From: a virus
IMG/VR virus record: IMGVR_UViG_3300006641_000097
Coordinates: 1-32,487 of that record
Length of the DNA: 32,487 nt
Direction: 5' to 3' (one strand)
The stretch's first letter is position 1, and each line of letters starts with the position of its first letter. The translations under genes and the position numbers were made by a program. Under the pieces are notes generated by a model that worked only from the letters and a program-made list of their open reading frames with translations, did no database searches and was not told where the DNA came from. Shown piece after piece: positions 3,840 through 18,807 of the stretch.

Positions 3840-3854
3840 CCAGGAGGTCCACCC

Positions 3855-5210
3855 ATGTCCACCCTCATCGAGCGCGTCCGCGCTCGCATCACCGAACTGA
3901 CCGCCCAGCGCGCCGATATCGACGCAGAGCTGGACGGCATCGTCGCCGACCCCGAGGCCCGTGGCTTCGACTCGACCGACGCCGCCCTCGCCCGCGTGAA
4001 CGAGCTGCGCGACGCCGGCCGTCAGGCCGACACCGACCTGGCCGCCGCCACCGAGCAGCTGAACGCTCTCACCGCCCAGGAGGAGCGCCAGGTGGCCGCA
4101 GTGCCGGCCCGCCCGGTCAACGTCGGCGGCGCCGTCGTGCGTTCCGAGGAGCGCACCTACGACGCCCACCGCCACGACCGCAGCTTCTTCGTCGACGCCT
4201 ACCGGGCCGAGTTCGGTCGCGACACCGAGGCCGCCGACCGCATCCAGCGGCACATGCGCGAGGTCGCCATCGAGCGCCGCGACATCACGTCGTCGACGCT
4301 CAACGGGCTCATCCCGCCGGTGTACCTGCTCGACCAGGCGGCGACGCTCGCCCGCGCCATGCGGCCGTTCGCCGACGCCGTCCCCGGCTACACGCTGCCG
4401 CAGACCGGCATGTCCGTCGTCGTCACGAAGGTGACGACCGGCACCGCCGCCGCCGCGCAGACGTCGGAGAACACCGCTGCGCAGGAGACGAACCTCGTCA
4501 CCACCGACCTGTCGGTGCCCGTCGTGACCGTCATGGGCCAGCAGGACCTGTCCCGCCAGGCCATCGAGCGTGGCGCCGTCACCGACGCCCTGGTGTTCGC
4601 CGACCTCGTCGCCGACTACGCGACGAAGCTCGACGCCCAGTGCATCAACGGCTCGGGCGCGAACGGGCAGTCGTTCGGCATCATCACCACCACGAGCGTC
4701 GGCACCGACAGCTATGCGGCGACGACCGTCGCCGCGTTCTACGGCTCCATCAACGCCGCTCTCTCCCGCGTGGCGTCGAACCGGTACGCCCCGGCGACCG
4801 TCATCGTCATGCACCCGCGCCGCTGGCACTGGCTGCTGTCGAAGGGTGACAGCACCGGTCGGCCGTTCGTGGTGCCATCGGAGCGGGTCGCGTGGAACCC
4901 GACCGGGATCGGTCAGACCGAGGGCTCCGGCATCGCCGGCACCCTCGCCGGGCTCCCCGTCATCGTCGACGCCAACGTGCCGACGAACCTCGGCGCCTCC
5001 ACCGACGAGGACCGGGTCATCGTGACCCGCCTCTCCGACCACGCCCTGTGGGAGTCGCCGGTGATGACCTTCGCGTTCGACCAGGCGCTGAACCCGCCCG
5101 CGTCGATCCGGCTGGCCGTCGCCGGGTACCACGCCTTCACGGCGGGCCGCTACCCGGCTTCGACCTCGCTGGTGCAGGGCACCGGCCTGGTCGCCCCGAC
5201 GTACGGCTGA
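3855..5210 (+). CDS. major capsid protein, HK97 fold
   Basis: 451 residues from ATG 3855 behind AGGAGG. Residues 1-85 are a charged, Ala/Glu/Arg-rich coiled coil (STLIERVRARITELTAQRAD...), the internal scaffold or delta domain expected to be removed by the protease. From about residue 110 the HK97 body follows: TSSTLNGLIPPVYL, an RAMRPFADAVPGYTLP N-arm/E-loop region, ENTAAQETNLVTTDLSVPVV, the spine-helix region, HPRRWHWLLS and GLPVIVDANVPTN in the A-domain, and a C-terminal PASIRLAVAGYHAF strand. The upstream hairpin and the downstream strong hairpin suggest a separately controlled, highly expressed unit. Confidence 0.93.
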   Translation: MSTLIERVRARITELTAQRADIDAELDGIVADPEARGFDSTDAALARVNELRDAGRQADTDLAAATEQLNALTAQEERQVAAVPARPVNVGGAVVRSEERTYDAHRHDRSFFVDAYRAEFGRDTEAADRIQRHMREVAIERRDITSSTLNGLIPPVYLLDQAATLARAMRPFADAVPGYTLPQTGMSVVVTKVTTGTAAAAQTSENTAAQETNLVTTDLSVPVVTVMGQQDLSRQAIERGAVTDALVFADLVADYATKLDAQCINGSGANGQSFGIITTTSVGTDSYAATTVAAFYGSINAALSRVASNRYAPATVIVMHPRRWHWLLSKGDSTGRPFVVPSERVAWNPTGIGQTEGSGIAGTLAGLPVIVDANVPTNLGASTDEDRVIVTRLSDHALWESPVMTFAFDQALNPPASIRLAVAGYHAFTAGRYPASTSLVQGTGLVAPTYG

Positions 5211-5223
5211 CCCGGCGTCTGAT

Positions 5224-5259
5224 CTGCCCGCCCCGGTGTCGTCCCGCCGGGGCGGGCAG
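5224..5259 (+). terminator. strong GC hairpin after the capsid gene
   Basis: A perfect 13-bp inverted repeat, CTGCCCGCCCCGG (5224-5236) and CCGGGGCGGGCAG (5247-5259), with a 10-nt loop, begins 13 nt after the capsid stop. There is no T-tract, as in many high-GC terminators. The next gene continues in the same direction, so partial termination or 3'-end protection of the capsid mRNA is the most likely role. Confidence 0.7.
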
Positions 5260-5292
5260 TCACACCCCCAGGGACGAGGGACGAGGGACGAC

Positions 5293-6060
5293 ATGGGCAA
5301 GAACACTCGCGGCCGGGCGCGCCCCAGCTCGGGCCGGGGACCGGCCACCGGTTCCGTCATCATCGGCATCCCGTCCAGGGGCCAATGCGAGTCACACTTC
5401 GCTCGGACGCTCTGCGACCTCGTGATGTGGGATCAGCGGATCGGTCGCCGCCATCTGCACGAAGAGCATCCGGTCATCTGGACGCTCGGCTCGACGCAGG
5501 TCGTCGTCGCCCGCAACGTGCTGGTGCGCAAGTTCCTCGAGTACGGCGGCGACTGGCTGCTGATGCTCGACGACGATCAGGTCTATCCGCAGGATCTGCT
5601 CGAGTGGCTGATCGCCTCGGCTGACAAGGACGAGCGACCGATCGTCGGTGTTCCGGTGTGGCGCTTCGCCTCCGATGGGGAGGCCGGGCCGACACCACGG
5701 GTGACGCACAACGTGATGGACATCCACGAGTCAGGCGGGTTCGTCGAGTGGACGGACGAGCTGCCCGACAAGTCGGTCGTGCAGGTCGCCGCCGTCGGCA
5801 CCGGCTGCCTCATGGTTCACCGTTCGGCGTTGGAACGGATGCGCGAGTGGAGCGTCGAGCAGGGGCTCGGCGCCGACTGGTGCTGGTTCCGTCACTCCGT
5901 ATGGCAGCCCGCCGACATGGCCGAGGGCGAAGACCTGTACTTCTGTCGCCTGGCACGCATGGTCGGCATCCCCGTGTTCGTGTCGACGTTCACGACGTTG
6001 CCGCACGTCAAGTCGGTGCAGCTGTCCGGTCCGGTGCCGGGCGGCCTGGTGACGGTGTGA
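5293..6060 (+). CDS. GT-A-fold (family 2-like) glycosyltransferase
   Basis: 255 residues from ATG 5293. A basic, Gly/Ser/Arg-rich start (1-20) leads into SVIIGIPSRGQ (first strand of a GT-A nucleotide-sugar domain), ARNVLVRKFLEYGGDWLLML and DDDQ (93-96), matching the metal-binding DxD of family 2-type enzymes. A later GEDLYFCRLA resembles the ED motif near the catalytic base, and LPHVKS supplies a possible metal His. There is no membrane segment. Substrate and acceptor are unknown; it could decorate virion proteins or, with the membrane protein next door, host surface glycans. The ATG follows three tandem GGGACGA units (5271-5290). An in-frame GTG at 5236 is inside the hairpin and less likely. 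Confidence 0.8.
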   Translation: MGKNTRGRARPSSGRGPATGSVIIGIPSRGQCESHFARTLCDLVMWDQRIGRRHLHEEHPVIWTLGSTQVVVARNVLVRKFLEYGGDWLLMLDDDQVYPQDLLEWLIASADKDERPIVGVPVWRFASDGEAGPTPRVTHNVMDIHESGGFVEWTDELPDKSVVQVAAVGTGCLMVHRSALERMREWSVEQGLGADWCWFRHSVWQPADMAEGEDLYFCRLARMVGIPVFVSTFTTLPHVKSVQLSGPVPGGLVTV

Positions 6061-6878
6061 AGATCGGCCCCGACGCCGCCCGCTACCTGGCGGCCGGTGA
6101 CGGTCATCGGGTCAGTCGCCCGTTCCATCTGCGCTGGTCGCTGCCGTTCCTGTGCGGCTCGAACGTCCGAGCGTGGTGGGTCGTGTGGCTGGCCTCGTGG
6201 CCGGTGATGGCGGCGGCGATGGTCGCCTGGCGGATCGTGGTCGGCGACGGCTGGCGGGTGGCGGTCGCCGCCGCAGTGGTGCTCGCCGGGTTGCCCGGCA
6301 TCGTCGGCCCGCAGGTCGTCGTGCCGGTCGGTGTCGACCTGCCGGCGACGGCGACGACGCTCGTCGGCGTGTGGCTGATGTCGATGGGTCAGCCGGGCCA
6401 GGTGGCCGCAGGCGTGGTCGTGGTGGCGCTCGCCGCAACTATGAAGGAATCTGCGCCGGTATTTGCTGCGTTGTGGGCGTGGTCGCTGTGGCCGTTGGTG
6501 GCGCTCGTCGTCGTGGCGGTTCGCTGGCTGATCGTGAAGCCGGGACCGGACCCGCTGGGGCCACGGTTCCAGGCGATCGCCGATCATCCGGTGCGTGAAG
6601 CGGGGGCGGCGCACCGGGGCCGCTGGCGGGACGGGTGGCTGATGGTCGCCCCGTGGGGTGTCGGGTTGATCGCCTTGCACTCGCTGTCCGTGCAGCTGGT
6701 CGTGACGGTCGCCGTCGCCTATGCGCTGCTGCTCGTCGCCACCGACACGGTGCGGATCGTTCAGCACGCAGCCGGGCCCGTTGTGGCTGCTGCGGCGTGC
6801 GCTCAGGTGCCTGTCGGCTGGCTGCCGGTCGTGTGCGTGTTCGGTGTCGTCTGGTTCTGGCAAGTCGAAAGGGTGTGA
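6057..6878 (+). CDS. polytopic membrane protein, GT-C-like
   Basis: About 273 residues, starting at GTG 6057 inside the glycosyltransferase stop (GTGA). After a soluble start of about 25 residues there are roughly seven to eight hydrophobic segments. The stretch VGVDLPATATTLVGVWLMSM, then ALAATMKESAPVFAALW, resembles the Asp-containing loop and the A-x-x-x-K-E helix of GT-C membrane glycosyltransferases, but the protein is shorter than those enzymes. A tail RFQAIADHP loop is cytosolic-looking. Translational coupling to a GT-A enzyme suggests a two-component sugar-transfer system. A flippase or simple anchor is the alternative. The GT-C resemblance is by eye only. Confidence 0.7.
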   Translation: MKIGPDAARYLAAGDGHRVSRPFHLRWSLPFLCGSNVRAWWVVWLASWPVMAAAMVAWRIVVGDGWRVAVAAAVVLAGLPGIVGPQVVVPVGVDLPATATTLVGVWLMSMGQPGQVAAGVVVVALAATMKESAPVFAALWAWSLWPLVALVVVAVRWLIVKPGPDPLGPRFQAIADHPVREAGAAHRGRWRDGWLMVAPWGVGLIALHSLSVQLVVTVAVAYALLLVATDTVRIVQHAAGPVVAAAACAQVPVGWLPVVCVFGVVWFWQVERV

Positions 6879-7771
6879 TCGTGCAGACTTTCGCCGACCA
6901 GCGCTTCGTGCGCGCCACCGCCGGCACCCTGTCGTGGCAAGGCGTCGACGCCGACGGCGAACCCGCCGATCCGGGCACCGTCACGATCGGTGTCACGTCG
7001 TCGGACGGGTCGACTGTGATCGCTGCGGCCACCGCCACGTCCGGGGCGACCACGAACCCGAGGACGAAGGCGCTCACAGTGGCGCAGACCGCCAACCTCG
7101 ACCGGCTCACGGCGACGTGGACCGTGTCCGGGGTCGCCGTAGCCACCACCAATGTCGACATCGTCGGCGGCGTCTACGCGTCCGTGGCAACGATCCGGGC
7201 CACCGACACGGTGCTCGCATCCGTCACCGTCGACCCGACGGCGACCCTGACCCGGGCACGCACCGCCGCCGAGCAGCTGTTCGAATCCGTCACCGGTGTC
7301 GCCTGGGTGCCCCGATTCGACGTCGTACGGCTGAACGGCACCGGAACCTCGAGGATCCTGTTGCCGTGGCCGCAACTTCGACGGGTGCGCTGGTGCCGCA
7401 TCTACTCCGATGCGACGACGTACACGTCGCTCACGGCGGGCGAGCTGGCGGCGATCCCCGCCGACCCCGCCGGTGTCGCCGTCCGCACCGACCTCGGTGT
7501 CTGGCCGGCCGGTGCCGCCAACATCGAGATCGGCTACGAGCACGGCTATGACCGGCCGCCGCAGGACATCGTCGATGCGCTGGTGAAGACGGTCAGGCGT
7601 GGCGCCCGCCGCTTCGACAACGGTCTGCCGGACAACGCCACCAGCCTGCAGCTGACAGATGTCGGGTCGGTGAGCCTGGCGACGCCAGGGATCGGGTCGT
7701 GGCACACCGGTATCCCCGAGGTCGACGAGGTGTTGAAGCGGCGCAGCCACCGCACCCCAGGTGTCGCCTGA
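6875..7771 (+). CDS. head-tail connector/adaptor protein
   Basis: About 298 residues; GTG 6875 overlaps the previous stop (GTGA), GTG 6881 is an alternative. Residues 1-95 are beta-rich and Thr/Ala-rich (VTIGVTSSDGSTVIAAATAT), like an added Ig-like or decoration domain. From about residue 115 the helical connector begins: TRARTAAEQLFESVTGVAWVPR, followed by RIYSDATTYTSL and IEIGYEHGYDRPPQDIVDAL, the pattern of HK97 gp6-type adaptors that bind the portal. The end, GIPEVDEVLKRRSH, is also typical. The N-terminal extension makes it about twice the usual length of the adaptor alone. Confidence 0.8.
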   Translation: MIVQTFADQRFVRATAGTLSWQGVDADGEPADPGTVTIGVTSSDGSTVIAAATATSGATTNPRTKALTVAQTANLDRLTATWTVSGVAVATTNVDIVGGVYASVATIRATDTVLASVTVDPTATLTRARTAAEQLFESVTGVAWVPRFDVVRLNGTGTSRILLPWPQLRRVRWCRIYSDATTYTSLTAGELAAIPADPAGVAVRTDLGVWPAGAANIEIGYEHGYDRPPQDIVDALVKTVRRGARRFDNGLPDNATSLQLTDVGSVSLATPGIGSWHTGIPEVDEVLKRRSHRTPGVA

Positions 7772-9926: not shown

Positions 9927-12053
9927 ATGGCCTTGGGCCTGACCGAGCGACTGAAGATCATCTTCGACGTCGAGACGCAATCGTTCAAGCAGGGCGTCAA
10001 GTCGCTGAAGGCTGAGATGGCGTCCGCTGATGGGGTGGTCGCCAAGTCGAAGGTCGGGTTCGGCGCCCTGAAGGATCAGCTCGCCACGTTCGGTCCTGCG
10101 GCCGCGCTGGCTGGTGCGGCGATCGCCGTCAACTTCGGCAAGAAGGCCGTCGACGCGTTCACGCAGACGGCGCTCGCCGCTGGCCAGCTGTCGGACGCGA
10201 CGACGTTGTCGACGGAGGATGCGTCGCGCTGGCTGGAGGTGTCGGACTCGGTAGGCATCTCTGCCGAGACGATGACGGGCGCGTTCCAGAAGATGAACGT
10301 CGCCGTCGCCAACGGGGCGTTCGCCAAGTACGGCATCGATGTGCAGCGGGCGTCCGACGGCACGATGGACGCCAACGCGACCATGCAGGTGGCGCTCGCC
10401 ACGATCGGGAAGATCCCTGACGCTGCGGAGCGGGCGAAGGCTGCGCAGGCTGTGTTCGGCCGGTCGTACGGGGAGATCGCCCGCCTGATCGAGATGAAGG
10501 CGGGCGACCTGCAGCAGGCGCTCGCTGACGTCACCGACGGCCAGCTGATCACTGACGGCGAAGTCGCGAAGGCCCGCGACTACCAGGCGGCGATGGACGA
10601 CCTGGGCGACTCCGTTCACGAGCTGTCGCTGAAGCTCGGCGGGGAGTTGGCGCCTGCGTTGGGTGGCGCAGCGGAGTCGGCGTCGAAGCTCATCACCTCT
10701 CTCACGAACATGCCCGGGCCTGTCAAGGGTGTCGTCGGCAATCTCCTCGACATGGCGCTGCCCGTCGAGGATGTCGCTGACGGGTTCGCTCAGGTGATCG
10801 ACGGGTCGAGCACCTGGAAGGAACGGCTGACCGGGCTCGGCAAGACGATCCCCTGGGTGGGTACCGCCGTCGACAACCTCGCCAACGCCATCAGTGGCGG
10901 CAGTGAGGCGATGGAGTTCGGGTTCATCAAGAACCTCGAGGTGTCGCGCCAGGAGGTCGGCAACCTCACCGGGCCGATCGATGCGCTGAACACCCTGCTC
11001 GACGCGACGGCTGGCTTGGCTGACGCCGCAGCGAAGGCCCAGCAGGAGCTCAACGATCAGCTGTTCACTGCCGCCGACAACGCCCGTGGCGCCGACAGGG
11101 CCATGGACGACTACCAGGAGCAGCTCGCCACATACGGCGGGATGCTGCTCGAGGGGACCGCCAGCAGCGAAGAACTGTCCGACGCCGTTCGCGACACCGC
11201 TGACGGAGCGATTGAGGCGGCCAAGGCCTACGCCGAGTCTGCTGTCGCCGCGGACAGTTCCAAGGACTACACCGACGAGTTCAAGAAGTCGTTGGGATAC
11301 CTCGCCGACACGCTAGAGCCAGGCTCGCCGCTGCGCCGACAGCTCGAGCAGTACCTCGCGACGCTTGACCAGATTCCCACCGACATCGTCACCGCCGTGT
11401 CGATCGTCAACGGCAACACGACGTTCCAGCTGCCGAACGGCCAGCTGATCGGTCGCCCCGCCGGTGCCGGCGGCACACACATCATGTCGGCGTCCGAGTT
11501 GGAGCAGGCGGCACTCGCCGCGTGGGGCGCAGCGGGCGGCGGCACAGGTGGCGGCAGCGCCGGTGGGCAGCACGAGATGTCGCCGGAGCGGCTGAAGGCG
11601 CTCGACGACTGGGACGAGTGGAAGAAGCGGTACGAGCGCAGCCACGGCGAGGACAAGCCGAAGATCGCCGGGCAGTACCTGAAGTTCCTCTACAAGATCG
11701 CCAAGCTGTTCCCGAAATTCTCCGATGAGGGCATGGCGATCTGGCGGGAGATCCAGCAAGTCCGCAAAGACCGCAACGCCGTGCGTGCCGAGCGGCGTGA
11801 GCGGCGCATCAACCGCCGGATCAAGGCCGCAGCGACGGCAGCGGAAGCGGCCGGGGAGCCGTGGGATTTCGACGGCCTGGCCGCCGGTGGCACCGGGTCG
11901 TCGTCGACGACCGGCGGGCGGGCGGCGGTGGCCGTCACCGTCAACATGCCGCACGCCCTCGTCGCCGACGGCCGGGCGATGCGCGAAGCGTTGCAGGCGG
12001 CGGCGCCGGCGATCTCGCACGCGCTCCGCCGCTACCACGAGGGGGACGCATGA
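9927..12053 (+). CDS. tape measure protein
   Basis: 708 residues behind GGAGGTG. It sets tail length: at about 1.5 angstrom per residue this predicts a tail near 100 nm. The N-terminus (LTERLKIIFDVETQSFKQGVKSL) is the usual tape-measure start. Residues 45-75 are a hydrophobic Ala/Gly stretch, followed by long helical Ala/Asp-rich repeats with the TMP-type LSTEDASRWLEVSD and AAQAVFGRSYGEIARL blocks. A Gly-rich linker (about 533-548) separates a charged helical C-terminal domain with RAERRERRINRRIKAA. The TGA overlaps the next ATG. Confidence 0.92.
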   Translation: MALGLTERLKIIFDVETQSFKQGVKSLKAEMASADGVVAKSKVGFGALKDQLATFGPAAALAGAAIAVNFGKKAVDAFTQTALAAGQLSDATTLSTEDASRWLEVSDSVGISAETMTGAFQKMNVAVANGAFAKYGIDVQRASDGTMDANATMQVALATIGKIPDAAERAKAAQAVFGRSYGEIARLIEMKAGDLQQALADVTDGQLITDGEVAKARDYQAAMDDLGDSVHELSLKLGGELAPALGGAAESASKLITSLTNMPGPVKGVVGNLLDMALPVEDVADGFAQVIDGSSTWKERLTGLGKTIPWVGTAVDNLANAISGGSEAMEFGFIKNLEVSRQEVGNLTGPIDALNTLLDATAGLADAAAKAQQELNDQLFTAADNARGADRAMDDYQEQLATYGGMLLEGTASSEELSDAVRDTADGAIEAAKAYAESAVAADSSKDYTDEFKKSLGYLADTLEPGSPLRRQLEQYLATLDQIPTDIVTAVSIVNGNTTFQLPNGQLIGRPAGAGGTHIMSASELEQAALAAWGAAGGGTGGGSAGGQHEMSPERLKALDDWDEWKKRYERSHGEDKPKIAGQYLKFLYKIAKLFPKFSDEGMAIWREIQQVRKDRNAVRAERRERRINRRIKAAATAAEAAGEPWDFDGLAAGGTGSSSTTGGRAAVAVTVNMPHALVADGRAMREALQAAAPAISHALRRYHEGDA

Positions 12054-13336
12054 CCACGGTGCTCACCATCGGCCGCTGCGCCCTGTCGGAACCGCCCGAG
12101 ACGATCGACTGGTCCGGTGACCAGCTGTCGTTGACCGGGCAGCTGTGGGCGTCGTCGGCGGGCGAGCTGAAGGCGCAACGGGACCAGCTGCTCGGGTTGG
12201 TCGACAACCGTGACGAGCTGGTGTTCCCGGTGACGTTCACCGAGGACTCGACGCTCGACGGCTTCTACGTCGTCGAGTCGGCGTCGGTGGGGTCGTTGCC
12301 GACGATGTTGACGTCGTTTGTGGCGCCGTACTCGATCGCTTTGCGGCGTGTGGCGACAGTCGCTGTCTGCGAATCGGATGTCCTCGCCCAGGTCCGCACG
12401 AACGGGCATGGCACCTCGAGCGCTGAGGGTGTTGTCGGGGCGTGGCCGTATGACGCTGCCGGGTCTCGCTACAACTTCACGACGTCGTTCACATCGACGA
12501 CTGGTCCGGTGACTCGTGAGGGTGACCCGGCTGACGTTGTGGTGTTGGTGAAGACGGTGAGCTCGGCGACGACGGGCACGGTCGGGTTCTCGGTGGAGCC
12601 GGGGGACTGGTACACGGGTGCGGCGACGTTCGAGTGGAAGGCGGATGGGACGAACTGGTCGGCGGTGACTGGTCGTGATCTTCCGGCGGGGACGGCGGTG
12701 TCGGGGTCGTGGCGGATCTCGAACGGGTTGGTGCGGTTGACGCCTGCGACAGCCGGGTGTCTGGTGGAGGGGTACACGGGGTCGGCGTGGGAGTCGACGA
12801 CGATCGACGGGGCGACGAATGTCGGCGGGTTCCCGTTGCCGTTCACGTTGGGCGGTCACGGGTATGCCGGCGACATGGCGGTCCCGGTGATCTTGCGGAA
12901 CGACCCGGACTGTGTGGTGGTCCGCTGCGTCACCCTCGGCGTCTACTCGCCGGCTGAGCGGGTGGTGCAGACGTTCACGATCCGGCGGGGCATGTCGTTC
13001 GTCGAGTGCACCTTCCAGCAGGCGACTGCCACCAACTTCGGGTTGCGGTTCGCGTCGTCGACGGCGACGTCGGACCTGGCGACGGCGACCGCTGGGATCG
13101 TGATGACGTCGAACGACGCCTCCGGCAACAAGTGGTCGCTGATGGGTGCGTTGTCGATGTCGAACGACAACGCGAGTGGCCGCACGAGGACTGCGTCGAC
13201 GACGTCGGTGCCGGTTCAGTGCGCCGTCGGGTTCGTCCTCGACGGCACGACCGCACCGACGTACGGCACAGCCACGAAGCTGCTCGCCCAGTTCCTCATC
13301 GCGGTCGACACCAAGACCCGGGTCGTGTTGCCGTGA
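12050..13336 (+). CDS. minor tail protein, distal-tail (Dit)-like
   Basis: About 428 residues from ATG 12050 (ATGA overlap with the tape measure). The first 120 residues (CALSEPPETIDWSGDQLSLTGQLWA, LKAQRDQLLGLVDNRDELVFPV, GFYVVESASVGSLP) match the N-terminal layout of Dit-like minor tail proteins of actinophages. A Thr/Ser/Gly-rich beta C-terminal half follows, likely a carbohydrate-binding or capping domain. It would sit at the tail tip between the tube and the hub protein encoded next. Confidence 0.8.
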   Translation: MTTVLTIGRCALSEPPETIDWSGDQLSLTGQLWASSAGELKAQRDQLLGLVDNRDELVFPVTFTEDSTLDGFYVVESASVGSLPTMLTSFVAPYSIALRRVATVAVCESDVLAQVRTNGHGTSSAEGVVGAWPYDAAGSRYNFTTSFTSTTGPVTREGDPADVVVLVKTVSSATTGTVGFSVEPGDWYTGAATFEWKADGTNWSAVTGRDLPAGTAVSGSWRISNGLVRLTPATAGCLVEGYTGSAWESTTIDGATNVGGFPLPFTLGGHGYAGDMAVPVILRNDPDCVVVRCVTLGVYSPAERVVQTFTIRRGMSFVECTFQQATATNFGLRFASSTATSDLATATAGIVMTSNDASGNKWSLMGALSMSNDNASGRTRTASTTSVPVQCAVGFVLDGTTAPTYGTATKLLAQFLIAVDTKTRVVLP

Positions 13337-14991
13337 CCGTCACGCAAGTCCTGATGGGGCCGGGTTCGTGGTCGTTGCAGCTGCGCGACGACACCCCGCC
13401 GTCCGTCCGCACCCAGATCCAGAAGCTGGACCATGTGGTGATCTGCCGCCGCAAGATCGACGCCGGTCTGCTGTACACCGATGCCAGCGCCCTGGCCGCC
13501 GTCAAGGCGCAAGGCGGCTACATCGGCGTCATCTTGGACACGCAGGGCCGCACCGGCCTCTCCGGTCAAGATCCCTACTGGTGGATCGCCAGGAAGCGGC
13601 TGACGAGTCAGATCACCCTCACGTCGACGAACACGTCGACGTGGCTCGACCAGATCTTCCCGGCGAACGGGATCACCAAGGGGTCGGTCACGAACGGGAC
13701 ATCGTTCGCCGGTGTCGTCGACATCGGCCGCATGGTCGGCGAGACGCTCGGATGGATCTGCGAGAACGCCGGCGTCGAGTGGCGGCTCCGCCCCGACTTC
13801 AGCGTCGACGTGGCCCCGTCGACGACGCTGTTCCCGGCCGCCACCACGACCTCGGCGGCCGTCATCACCCGCAACGCCGCCGGAGACGAAGGCGGCCTGT
13901 CCGGGATCCTGGCTGACGCCGTCGAACTCGAGACCGACGCCACCGACATCGCTTCCGACGTCACCGTCGTCCACTCGGCCACCGACAAGAAGGTGAAGCT
14001 GGTCACGGCGACGACGACCCCGACCGGTGTGCGGTGGGTGGCGCCGGACGGGACCACACCGGCGATCACCGTGGTCGGCACTGCGAAGTCGTTGAAGCCG
14101 GCTGAAGCGTCGACGTACGCGACGAATCTCGTCGCCCGCCTGTCGGTGCTGAACCGGACGGTGCGGTTGTCGTCCGATTCGCACAACGTCACCGGTGACG
14201 TCGCCCCAGGGACCAGGGTGTGGGTGTACGACAGGGACGCCGACCTGTACGACACGTCGAACCAGGTGCCGTGGCGTGGCGAGGTGATCAGCCCGGTGCA
14301 GCTGCGGGTGGCGTCGATCACGTGGCCGGTGGTGGCTGGGATGGCGGTGTACGCCCGGCTCAACGGCGGCGCCACATGGCTCGACCTGTCCGACTACGTG
14401 GTGTCCGAGCCGGACACGGTGACGTGGGACGTGAACTTCACCGGGAAGCGCCGCAACCAGGCCCCGGTGGCGCTCGGGTACGTGTCGCTCAACATGGCCG
14501 GCGGCGGCGGTGGCGGCCAGGGCGGTCGACCCGCTCACGGCGACGCCCTCGCCGAGTCGGAGACGGACGCCGACGCCGGCGGCTGGACCCCGACATGGAC
14601 GAACGCAGCGAAGGGGACCGGTGGCTCCGCGGCGAACGCCGGCGCCTACACGATCGCCAAGGGGCAGATGAGGGTGCAGGCGGAGATCGTGCTCGGCACC
14701 GGCGGCGGGGCAGGCGTGACCGGCGCCGTGTCGGTCGCCATGCCGTCCGGCTGGCAGGCCGACTGCGTCTCCTCCCGCCGCCACATCGTCGGCACGGCGC
14801 GCGTCGTCGCCGCCGGCAATGAGTACGCCGGGTTCGTCGAGGTCGACGGCGGTACGCCCGGCTCGCTCCAGGTCCGCTGCTTGGACGTGGCGACCGGGCA
14901 GACGCAGGCACTGTCGGCGACCGTGCCAGCCACGTTCGCCGCCGGCGACGTGATCGACATCGACGTGATCATCGCAGTCGAACGCACCTGA
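13333..14991 (+). CDS. minor tail protein, tail-tip hub (Tal)-like with C-terminal receptor domain
   Basis: 552 residues, GTG start overlapping the Dit-like stop. Residues 1-385 contain WSLQLRDDTPPSVRTQIQKL, IDAGLLYTDA, QDPYWWIARKRLTSQITLTS, a GETLGWICENAGVEWRLRPD block and EVELETD-like segments, as in siphovirus hub proteins. A Gly-rich hinge (AGGGGGGQGG, about 393-402) leads to a C-terminal jelly-roll-like domain with WTPTWTNAAKGTGGSAANAGAYTIA (broken up in the protein by turns), a common receptor-binding or fibre module. Host recognition by this domain is inferred. Confidence 0.75.
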   Translation: MTVTQVLMGPGSWSLQLRDDTPPSVRTQIQKLDHVVICRRKIDAGLLYTDASALAAVKAQGGYIGVILDTQGRTGLSGQDPYWWIARKRLTSQITLTSTNTSTWLDQIFPANGITKGSVTNGTSFAGVVDIGRMVGETLGWICENAGVEWRLRPDFSVDVAPSTTLFPAATTTSAAVITRNAAGDEGGLSGILADAVELETDATDIASDVTVVHSATDKKVKLVTATTTPTGVRWVAPDGTTPAITVVGTAKSLKPAEASTYATNLVARLSVLNRTVRLSSDSHNVTGDVAPGTRVWVYDRDADLYDTSNQVPWRGEVISPVQLRVASITWPVVAGMAVYARLNGGATWLDLSDYVVSEPDTVTWDVNFTGKRRNQAPVALGYVSLNMAGGGGGGQGGRPAHGDALAESETDADAGGWTPTWTNAAKGTGGSAANAGAYTIAKGQMRVQAEIVLGTGGGAGVTGAVSVAMPSGWQADCVSSRRHIVGTARVVAAGNEYAGFVEVDGGTPGSLQVRCLDVATGQTQALSATVPATFAAGDVIDIDVIIAVERT

Positions 14992-17633: not shown

Positions 17634-17654
17634 GGTCACATGTGGTCACATGTT
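17634..17654 (+). repeat. candidate right integrase arm sites, tandem pair
   Basis: GGTCACATGT (17634-17643) and GGTCACATGTT (17644-17654) are adjacent direct repeats, matching 17430-17440. Each contains the palindrome ACATGT. They end 7 nt before the preferred integrase ATG at 17662, so integrase bound here could also repress its own gene. Confidence 0.6.
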
Positions 17655-17661
17655 GTCCGAG

Positions 17662-18807
17662 ATGGCACGTGCGAGATGGGGAACAGGGTCGATCACCGCC
17701 CGAGGTGCGGGGACGTGGCGGATCCGGCTGTCGCTGGGCGTCGATCCGGTCACCGGGCAGCGCCGTGTGCTGTCCGAGACGGTCCACGGGTTGAAGCGGG
17801 ACGCTCAACGCCGCCTCGACGAGCTCGTCCGTGAGCACGGCGACGTCCAGGTGCCGACCACGGCGACAGTCGCCACGTTGGCCTCCGAGTGGCTGCAGCT
17901 GCTGTCGGTGCGTCCGCAGACCGAAGCCGGGTATCGCCGTGCGGTGACCCGAGACCTGGTGCCGTTGCTCGGCGCCGCACGACTCGACAAGCTGACCCCG
18001 CTCGACGTGCAACGGGCCTACAAGCAGGCTGAGACCGCCGGGTGGGGTGTGCATCGGATCCGGTTGATGCACGCCGTCCTGTCGAAGATGTTGAACGACG
18101 CGGTCCGCTGGGGGTGGGTGCCGCGCAACGTCGCCGCCAACGTGCCGCTGCCGGCGTTACCGGCCCGCCAGGACCGGGCCCTCGACGCCGGGGAGGTCGG
18201 CAAGCTCGTGACCGCCGCCGGTCGGATGCGTCCATCGGTGGCGGTGTGGCTTCACCTGCATCTCGCCACCGGCGCACGACGGTCGGAGATCCTGGCGTTG
18301 CGTTGGTCGGACATCGACCTGGTCGGTGGCCGGATCCTGTTCTCGCGGACGTTGGAACGCCGAGACGGGGTGATCGTGGCCCGCCCCGGGTCGAAGACGG
18401 GGCGGATGAAGGTGGTGCCGGTCGGTGCGGCGACGGTGCAGATCCTCACCGAGCACCTCGAGCGAGGCGTCGCCGTCCTCGGCGAAGACCTCCCGGCGGA
18501 CGCCTACGTTCTGTCGTTCGAACCGGACGGGTCGGCGCCGTGGCAGCCGGACTACGCCTCGCACCTGTTCGGTGACCTGGCCGCCGCAGCGGGGGTGTCC
18601 GGGGTCCGGTTGCATGATCTGCGGCACACGGCGATCTCGCACATCATCGCCTCGACCGGGGATCTGTTGTTGGCGTCACGGATCGCCGGGCACAGCAGGA
18701 CGGCGACGACCGGCGACGTGTACGGGCATCTCCTGCCCGGCCAGTTCGACGCCGCCACCGAGTCGCTCGGCCGCCTCGCCGCCGGTGATCACACAGCCGA
18801 CGGGTGA
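17662..18807 (+). CDS. int: tyrosine integrase
   Basis: 381 residues from ATG 17662; ATG 17650 is in frame but lies within the arm-like repeats. The N-terminal ARWGTGSITARGAGTWRIRL is the usual arm-binding domain, residues about 70-150 the SAM-like core-binding domain (TLASEWLQLLSVRPQT, LHAVL-type helix), and the catalytic domain has Arg206/207 (TGARRSE), Lys245 (SKTGR), His318-x-x-Arg321 (LHDLRH), His344 (AGHS) and Tyr354 (GDVYGH). All catalytic residues are present. It recombines attP with attB; the likely attP lies directly upstream. The excisionase-like partner is far away in the early operon. Confidence 0.95.
   Translation: MARARWGTGSITARGAGTWRIRLSLGVDPVTGQRRVLSETVHGLKRDAQRRLDELVREHGDVQVPTTATVATLASEWLQLLSVRPQTEAGYRRAVTRDLVPLLGAARLDKLTPLDVQRAYKQAETAGWGVHRIRLMHAVLSKMLNDAVRWGWVPRNVAANVPLPALPARQDRALDAGEVGKLVTAAGRMRPSVAVWLHLHLATGARRSEILALRWSDIDLVGGRILFSRTLERRDGVIVARPGSKTGRMKVVPVGAATVQILTEHLERGVAVLGEDLPADAYVLSFEPDGSAPWQPDYASHLFGDLAAAAGVSGVRLHDLRHTAISHIIASTGDLLLASRIAGHSRTATTGDVYGHLLPGQFDAATESLGRLAAGDHTADG

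Follow-up and report, generated by a model that had tools for sequence, protein, structure and literature searches.

A predicted GT-A glycosyltransferase and a TM1-less GT-C-like membrane protein between the capsid and connector genes of a probable actinobacteriophage

The virus studied here encodes two proteins between its genes for the major capsid protein (MCP) and the connector, where a sequence-only reading had placed a GT-A glycosyltransferase (GT) with a clear DDD motif and a coupled, GT-C-like membrane protein (MEM). The locus raises the question of what two putative sugar-transferring proteins do in the middle of a head module. The likely role of the pair is to add sugars to the virion or to the envelope of the host. 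As an account of the whole two-step process, we lean towards a late, capsid-linked glycosylation cassette of an actinobacteriophage.

Gene order and the hairpin behind the capsid gene

The window, that is, the whole stretch of DNA analyzed, is an entire IMG/VR virus record of 32,487 bases, with a GC content of about 69% and no tRNA found along its length. Its head module runs in the order terminase, portal, S78 protease, HK97-type MCP, GT, MEM, and head-tail adaptor. The MCP gene (positions 3849–5210, plus strand, capsid group MCP6) matches phrog_2263 (E 1.1e-53) and Pfam Phage_capsid (E 1.5e-17). It is followed on the same strand by GT (5293–6060, 255 aa, ATG start), MEM (6057–6878, 273 aa, GTG start), and the head-tail adaptor or connector that closes the island (6881–7771; phrog_442, E 1.1e-16; phrog_30828, E 3.5e-50). 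Both genes of the pair are thus present in the window, and position 6878, given earlier as the end of the feature, is the stop of MEM. The GTG start of MEM overlaps the stop of GT by four shared bases, and the two genes are therefore probably coupled in translation. The position between capsid and connector and the coupling proposed from sequence both hold. A longer frame in the list of open reading frames, starting at 5658, was rejected as MEM, whose start is at 6057. From gene position only, we infer late expression of GT and MEM.

An integrase is encoded at 17650–18807 (phrog_1, E 3e-56), which suggests that the phage is temperate. The isolate relatives of the window MCP are all Mycobacterium phages (57 of 57 records), and those of a second capsid type (64 records) infect Gordonia, Mycobacterium, Mycolicibacterium, and Rhodococcus. 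Since the MCP relatives among isolates are all phages of actinobacteria, the host is most likely an actinobacterium. Further along the window, at 12050–14991, two large proteins without a PHROG match follow the tape measure gene; they are probably tail or receptor-binding parts.

A strong hairpin, read earlier as attenuator-like, directly follows the MCP stop on the plus strand (5224–5259). Its core is a 15-bp stem formed by 5224–5238 and 5245–5259, and a GTG at 5236, in frame with GT, sits within this stem. The fold is more stable than that of shuffled sequences, with z -4.4 for 5211–5280 and z -7.5 for 5216–5265; over a longer stretch, the value was only z -1.8, and 10 of 200 shuffles were equally stable. 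The hairpin is thus real. It has no T-run, and a terminator scan gave no match, so that a reading as terminator or promoter was rejected for want of support.

Comparison with related loci shows to which gene the hairpin belongs. Among distinct 70-base stretches 3' of the MCP stop, 37 of 37 have z below -2 (median -4.4), whereas after other genes this value is reached in 5/30 cases for GT, 3/30 for the protease, 2/36 for MEM, 2/25 for terL, 1/26 for conn3, 1/18 for portal, and 0/6 for conn19. Phages of group MCP6 carry the hairpin in 14 of 14 loci with GT and in 10 of 16 without; in group MCP9, the counts are 37 of 42 with GT and 1 of 1 without. Four isolates outside the locus survey (Optimus, Mcklovin, Jflix2, and prophiGD43A-5) have a hairpin behind MCP as well, and no sugar island was seen in the last three. 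The idea that the hairpin is a switch of the sugar genes was rejected on account of these isolates and the 10 GT-less MCP6 loci. Because phages without sugar genes have it too, the hairpin goes with the capsid gene, not with the sugar genes. It perhaps protects the MCP mRNA or lowers read-through into the genes that follow. Across the 37 of 37 distinct loci of the MEM/GT group, the hairpin is strong but diverse in sequence, and it looks like a general feature of these actinobacteriophage capsid genes.

Predicted folds of GT and MEM

GT matches the PHROG glycosyltransferase family phrog_34859 (E 2.1e-11); against the Pfam GT2 family (PF00535) it scores 20.6 bits, under the curated cut-off of 23.3. 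Isolate phages yielded only five weak matches to the window GT and none to the GT of locus L145. A model built from 32 relatives (pLDDT 85) has 222 matches in the PDB at E ≤ 0.001. The best VIA matches are A197 of the archaeal virus STIV (Z 18.7, 2.2 Å over 165 residues) and the human lysyl hydroxylase LH3 (Z 18.6), with mimivirus R699, Mnn9, ColGalT1, and TarP lower down. The DDD motif noticed in the sequence is formed by D93-D94-D95 (bases 5569–5577); across the 32 aligned rows, D93 and D95 never vary, and neither do the E213-D214 pair and H238. The model thus predicts a Rossmann-like GT-A fold with a DxD motif, as first proposed. The acceptor is not given by the shared fold alone. DPMS and GtrB structures are absent among the 50 GT matches listed, which excludes nothing. 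GT has no evident hydrophobic membrane segment.

The model of MEM, built from 40 relatives, has a pLDDT of 87 and a pTM of 0.87. In a comparison against 348 PDB chains, the 36 best rows were all GT-C folds, with Z from 14.4 to 6.8 in a range that, by the warning of the tool, helical bundles can reach by chance; row 37 falls to Z 3.5. The matches include PMT1, ArnT, AglB, STT3/OST, PglB, AftD, AftB, ALG9, and ALG3, together with EmbB, PIG-U (Z 9.6), PimE, AftA, ALG6, and others of these families. Because every row above the gap in Z comes from one superfamily, MEM is assigned a GT-C fold on the strength of its model, and the fold search put it with these proteins (36 of 36 rows) rather than outside them. 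Foldseek found no PDB match to MEM at E ≤ 0.001; its weak top rows include OST (best E 0.49) and Emb enzymes. In BFVD there is a match to one uncharacterized phage protein, A0A6J5M3A1 (E 1e-5, 24% identity). The less confident parts of the model, residues 181–210 (pLDDT 53–73) and 221–240 (pLDDT 66–69), hold the motifs with the highest conservation.

Searches of Pfam, NCBIfam, PHROG, and the PDB with the MEM sequence gave no credible match, and a sub-threshold NCBIfam match to a pilus protein was judged to be chance. With hhalign, small sets of host PMT_2 and GT87 proteins gave nothing clearly above reversed controls. No match was found by tblastn in 50,697 phage records, whereas IMG/VR yielded 114 relatives, of which the best 80 were kept. 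Among 84,980 genomes of bacterial and archaeal species there is one homolog, in Microtetraspora glauca, and a second sample of 394 genomes of the same class contains two, the first being that of Microtetraspora glauca. Given so few homologs in these surveys, MEM is not an ordinary host gene. By these searches, it is a family of phage proteins to which Pfam, PHROG, NCBIfam, and the isolate phages offer no match.

In the alignment of 40 relatives, which reaches down to 33% identity, residues D6, R9, D94, E131, D230, and R233 are invariant, position 130 is always Lys or Arg, and Y10 is also conserved. The bases concerned are 6072–6074 for D6, 6336–6338 for D94, 6444–6449 for K130-E131, and 6753–6755 for R233. 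D6 stands at the start of a helix (residues 5–14). AftB and PimE have their catalytic aspartate in the loop that follows TM1, at the tip of helix JM1 (PMC12041299, PMC12041525). The structural alignments start with residue 1 of MEM on AftB residue 57 and PimE residue 53. Provided that this first part has no gaps, D6 falls on AftB D62 and PimE D58, and Y10 on PimE Y62; the placement rests on the starts of the alignments. The spacing from D94 to K130 is 36 residues in MEM, and that from D160 to K195 is 35 in PimE. The same offset fits ArnT D55, PMT1 D77, and STT3 D47, which we take to be the catalytic aspartates of these enzymes. The model therefore indicates that MEM keeps the expected GT-C catalytic aspartate as D6, with a putative role in catalysis.

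MEM thus resembles the GT-C(A) polyprenyl-phosphate-sugar transferases PMT1, ArnT, AftB, PimE, and STT3 in its predicted fold (Z 8–14), in an aspartate at the JM1 tip, and in the order and spacing of further conserved residues. It differs from them in size (273 aa) and in having no large outer domain, no sequence-level match, and no TM1. The conserved GT-C module consists of TM1–TM7 plus JM1 and JM2 (PMC12041299, PMC12041525). MEM starts at JM1, where GT-C enzymes have just completed TM1. No hydrophobic stretch was found upstream in 118 of 120 MEM-homologous frames with a complete N terminus, a set that includes the same contigs fetched more than once. With TM1 absent and the remainder of the module present, MEM is best labeled, on its model, a GT-C-like, TM1-less variant and not a standard member.

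The two frames that do have TM1 are chromosomal homologs from actinomycetes (L087:9767–10816 and L179:1423–2313), with no phage genes recognized by eye nearby. They are a possible source or descendant of the phage gene.

The loss of TM1 could also mean that MEM, despite keeping the GT-C fold, is not an enzyme. PIG-U, one of its structural matches, is a subunit of the GPI transamidase, and by analogy MEM could be a scaffold, or a subunit that binds the carrier and anchors GT or the head at the membrane. PIG-U is described as structurally similar to the GT-C family, outside it, and different in function (PMC12041525). This role is very unlikely for MEM, because the invariant D6, R9, D94, E131, D230, and R233, with Lys or Arg at 130, form the pattern expected of an active site.

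Linkage of GT, MEM, and the capsid gene

A further question was whether the two genes always travel together beside capsid genes. The 85 loci collected for MEM (L002–L086) include four without MEM, one that is cut, and two with too little upstream sequence, which leaves 78 that can be assessed. GT lies upstream of MEM in 73 of them, an arrangement conserved widely enough to exclude chance adjacency, and within 60 bases in 65; after relatives at least 90% identical are dropped, it does so in 31 of 35. Near-identical copies remain in the locus counts unless otherwise stated, and the lists hold the best 80 of larger sets, with 114 MEM relatives in one case and at least 475, 494, and 390 sequences in the others.

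In the remaining five loci (L036, L041, L079, L080, and L086), MEM follows the terminase gene. The first four contigs carry GT elsewhere, beside MCP; the contig of L086, a 10.7-kb fragment, has no GT match. In these five loci, which represent a distinct phage group, the genes next to MEM encode a hydrophobic protein of 47 aa (c37) and then a protein of about 117 aa (c38).

Seeding the survey with GT gave 79 loci, of which 74 have a recognized MCP and 4 have MEM; four of the five without a recognized MCP are cut upstream of GT. Surveys seeded with MCP kept loci with at least 2.5 kb downstream, dropping 42 of 80 for MCP6 and 23 of 80 for MCP9. The 38 MCP6 loci comprise 13 with GT and MEM, 3 with GT only, 22 with neither, and none with MEM alone. 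For MCP9, the corresponding numbers among 57 loci are 11, 44, 2, and 0. GT is therefore found in 16 of 38 MCP6 and 55 of 57 MCP9 loci. Combined, these capsid-seeded surveys show GT with 24 of 24 MEM genes and 47 GT loci without MEM. As far as these samples go, MEM depends on GT, and not the reverse, and GT goes chiefly with the capsid gene, in most cases with no MEM beside it. Joint travel of the pair and its place in the capsid module are upheld.

Co-divergence was measured from distances with the portal distance removed, after near-identical phages had been dropped, leaving sets of 8 and 12. GT follows MCP in both (partial r 0.64, p 0.002, n = 8; 0.78, p 0.002, n = 12). MEM shows no co-divergence with MCP (0.21 and 0.09) and no clear co-divergence with GT (0.33, p 0.04, and -0.01). 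As controls, GT tracks the protease too (0.68 and 0.80), and the protease tracks MCP in one set only (0.19 and 0.79). In these small sets, protease, MCP, and GT diverge for the most part as one block, which MEM does not join. Either function or linkage may be the cause. We did not accept the co-divergence of GT and MCP as proof that the capsid is glycosylated, since the protease gives the same signal and linkage of neighboring genes could account for it.

The loose tie between MEM and GT distances is what would be expected if the two were unrelated cargo sharing an insertion-tolerant gap between capsid and connector. Other cargo does occur in this gap, namely an HNH endonuclease in L085 and an uncharacterized 188-aa protein in L009, and in five loci MEM follows terL instead. 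Such a coincidence is nonetheless distinctly unlikely: MEM is present in 13 of 16 MCP6 loci with GT and in 0 of 22 without (Fisher p 1e-7, kinship ignored), and four of the five phages with a relocated MEM still carry GT, the fifth being a fragment.

Related islands and the target of the sugars

The region between MCP and connector holds further sugar-related genes in the window group, which thus has a sugar island of glycosyl- and methyltransferases. The companions are SAM methyltransferases (cluster c11, 26 members; c32, 5 members) and a second small GT2 (c25, 7 members); another GT is single cargo in L021. In a close relative (L004:1146–3652), a second GT-A, a 2OG-Fe(II) oxygenase (Pfam E 9e-16), and a methyltransferase replace MEM. 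By analogy, this oxygenase together with an LH3-like GT recalls hydroxylation followed by glycosylation. In a metagenomic myovirus from Manatee Spring (L088:2367–3011, MW202496.1), a GT lies two genes after MCP, so that placing a GT near the capsid gene may not be limited to actinobacteriophages.

Islands of glycosyl- and methyltransferases between capsid and connector are already known from cluster J mycobacteriophages (Omega, Thibault, and Optimus), as described by Pope and co-authors in 2013, who, in the part of the article consulted, did not decide between viral and host targets (PMC3706429). The order in Optimus is MCP, GT, kinase, methyltransferase, three GTs, protease, two unknown genes, GT, and connector. 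The window genes occupy the same place as this island, with its several GTs and SAM methyltransferase; the Optimus MCP is 36% identical to that of the window, and Optimus gp12 matches the GT profile, although distantly (E 2.6e-8). The differences are that the cluster J island has a kinase and a zinc protease, both missing from the window island, and that MEM has no match among the 12 Optimus proteins tested (gp12–gp23).

In the cassette that we favor, the soluble GT would move a sugar from a nucleotide donor to an acceptor in the cytoplasm, for which the best candidate is a head protein, for instance the MCP that GT follows and with which it co-diverges. MEM, as a minimal GT-C transferase, would then draw its sugar from a polyprenyl-phosphate carrier; D6 would be the catalytic residue, and D94, K130, and R233 would help to hold donor and phosphate. 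Methyltransferases or additional GTs encoded in the island would decorate the product in many relatives. If the site of MEM faces outward, its acceptor would lie in the host envelope or be an exported glycan, and the donor would be made and flipped by the host. With GT acting on capsids in the cytoplasm, the two enzymes would then share no acceptor; the occurrence of MEM only together with GT in the samples here would instead fit a joint product.

The orientation of MEM bears directly on this point. In the usual GT-C orientation, the would-be inner loops carry 9.1 Lys and Arg and the outer loops 6.6, on a loop assignment that rests on predicted helices and is uncertain after residue 180. By the positive-inside rule, these charges mildly favor an outward-facing active site; MEM would then act on the envelope or on an exported acceptor, and GT inside the cell. 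We do not treat the rule as decisive, since the N-terminal tail is also positive (4.9 Lys and Arg). In the usual orientation, the N-terminal 36 residues have to cross the membrane.

Alternatively, the loss of TM1 may have turned MEM inside out. Its site would then be cytoplasmic and use a polyprenyl-phosphate sugar of the inner leaflet without a flippase, and MEM could extend the sugar placed on the capsid by GT, so that a single virion glycan results from both enzymes. Such a joint product would account for finding no MEM without GT, and GT also on its own. The loop charges speak mildly against the inversion, which we hold to be unlikely.

An outward-facing MEM would also suit a role in envelope modification. 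GT would make or extend a lipid-linked sugar and MEM would transfer it outside, and the late change in the host surface glycan would mask the receptor from progeny or stop superinfection. GT-C enzymes are described, in the part of the source consulted, as acting outside on lipid-linked donors (PMC11127046), chromosomal MEM homologs with an ordinary TM1 exist, and TarP, a wall teichoic acid GT, is among the structural neighbors of GT. The model for such a role would be the gtrABC seroconversion cassettes of P22, SfV, and others. Like the window pair, they encode a GT-A-type and a GT-C-type enzyme together on a phage. Gtr(type) proteins are far larger than MEM, and no GtrA flippase (PF04138) was found in 14 phage records, which are possibly fragments, whereas 7 of 14 control genomes were positive. 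The window GT is, moreover, soluble to judge by its lack of an evident membrane segment, bound to the capsid gene, and mostly without MEM. Lysogenic conversion genes are usually expressed from the prophage, unlike a pair in the structural gene block. The likeness to gtr cassettes, as membership of that family, is thus not upheld, and an envelope role of this kind is rather unlikely.

Glycosylated virions have precedents among phages of actinobacteria. The mycobacteriophages Che8 and Rita are cited as having phage-encoded GTs and glycans on the major capsid protein, and in the related F1 phage Maravista the GTs lie near the 3' genome end; the part of this account consulted mentions no GT-C member (PMC11256854). 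In a Rhodococcus phage, a GT and a methyltransferase were read as a hint of glycosylated virions (PMC13313380). One Caudoviricetes genome is described as carrying a pentofuranose system of three components that includes a GT-C, possibly for seroconversion (PMC11127046), so phage GT-C genes as such are not new. Within the limited literature searched, no paper was found on a phage-encoded GT-C glycosyltransferase with the capsid. By this literature and the family libraries, a TM1-less GT-C member of a phage capsid-connector island appears to be new.

As a putative enzyme, MEM would be one of the smallest in the GT-C class, and the existence of homologs that have TM1 alongside others that lack it is a natural experiment on the role of this helix. 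Virion glycans reportedly affect immune recognition of mycobacteriophages, to go by the title of Freeman's 2023 work. A small GT-C in the island makes the question of envelope versus virion target testable, because the membrane orientation of MEM alone separates the two. If the inverted orientation is true, a membrane enzyme would build a two-step virion glycan.
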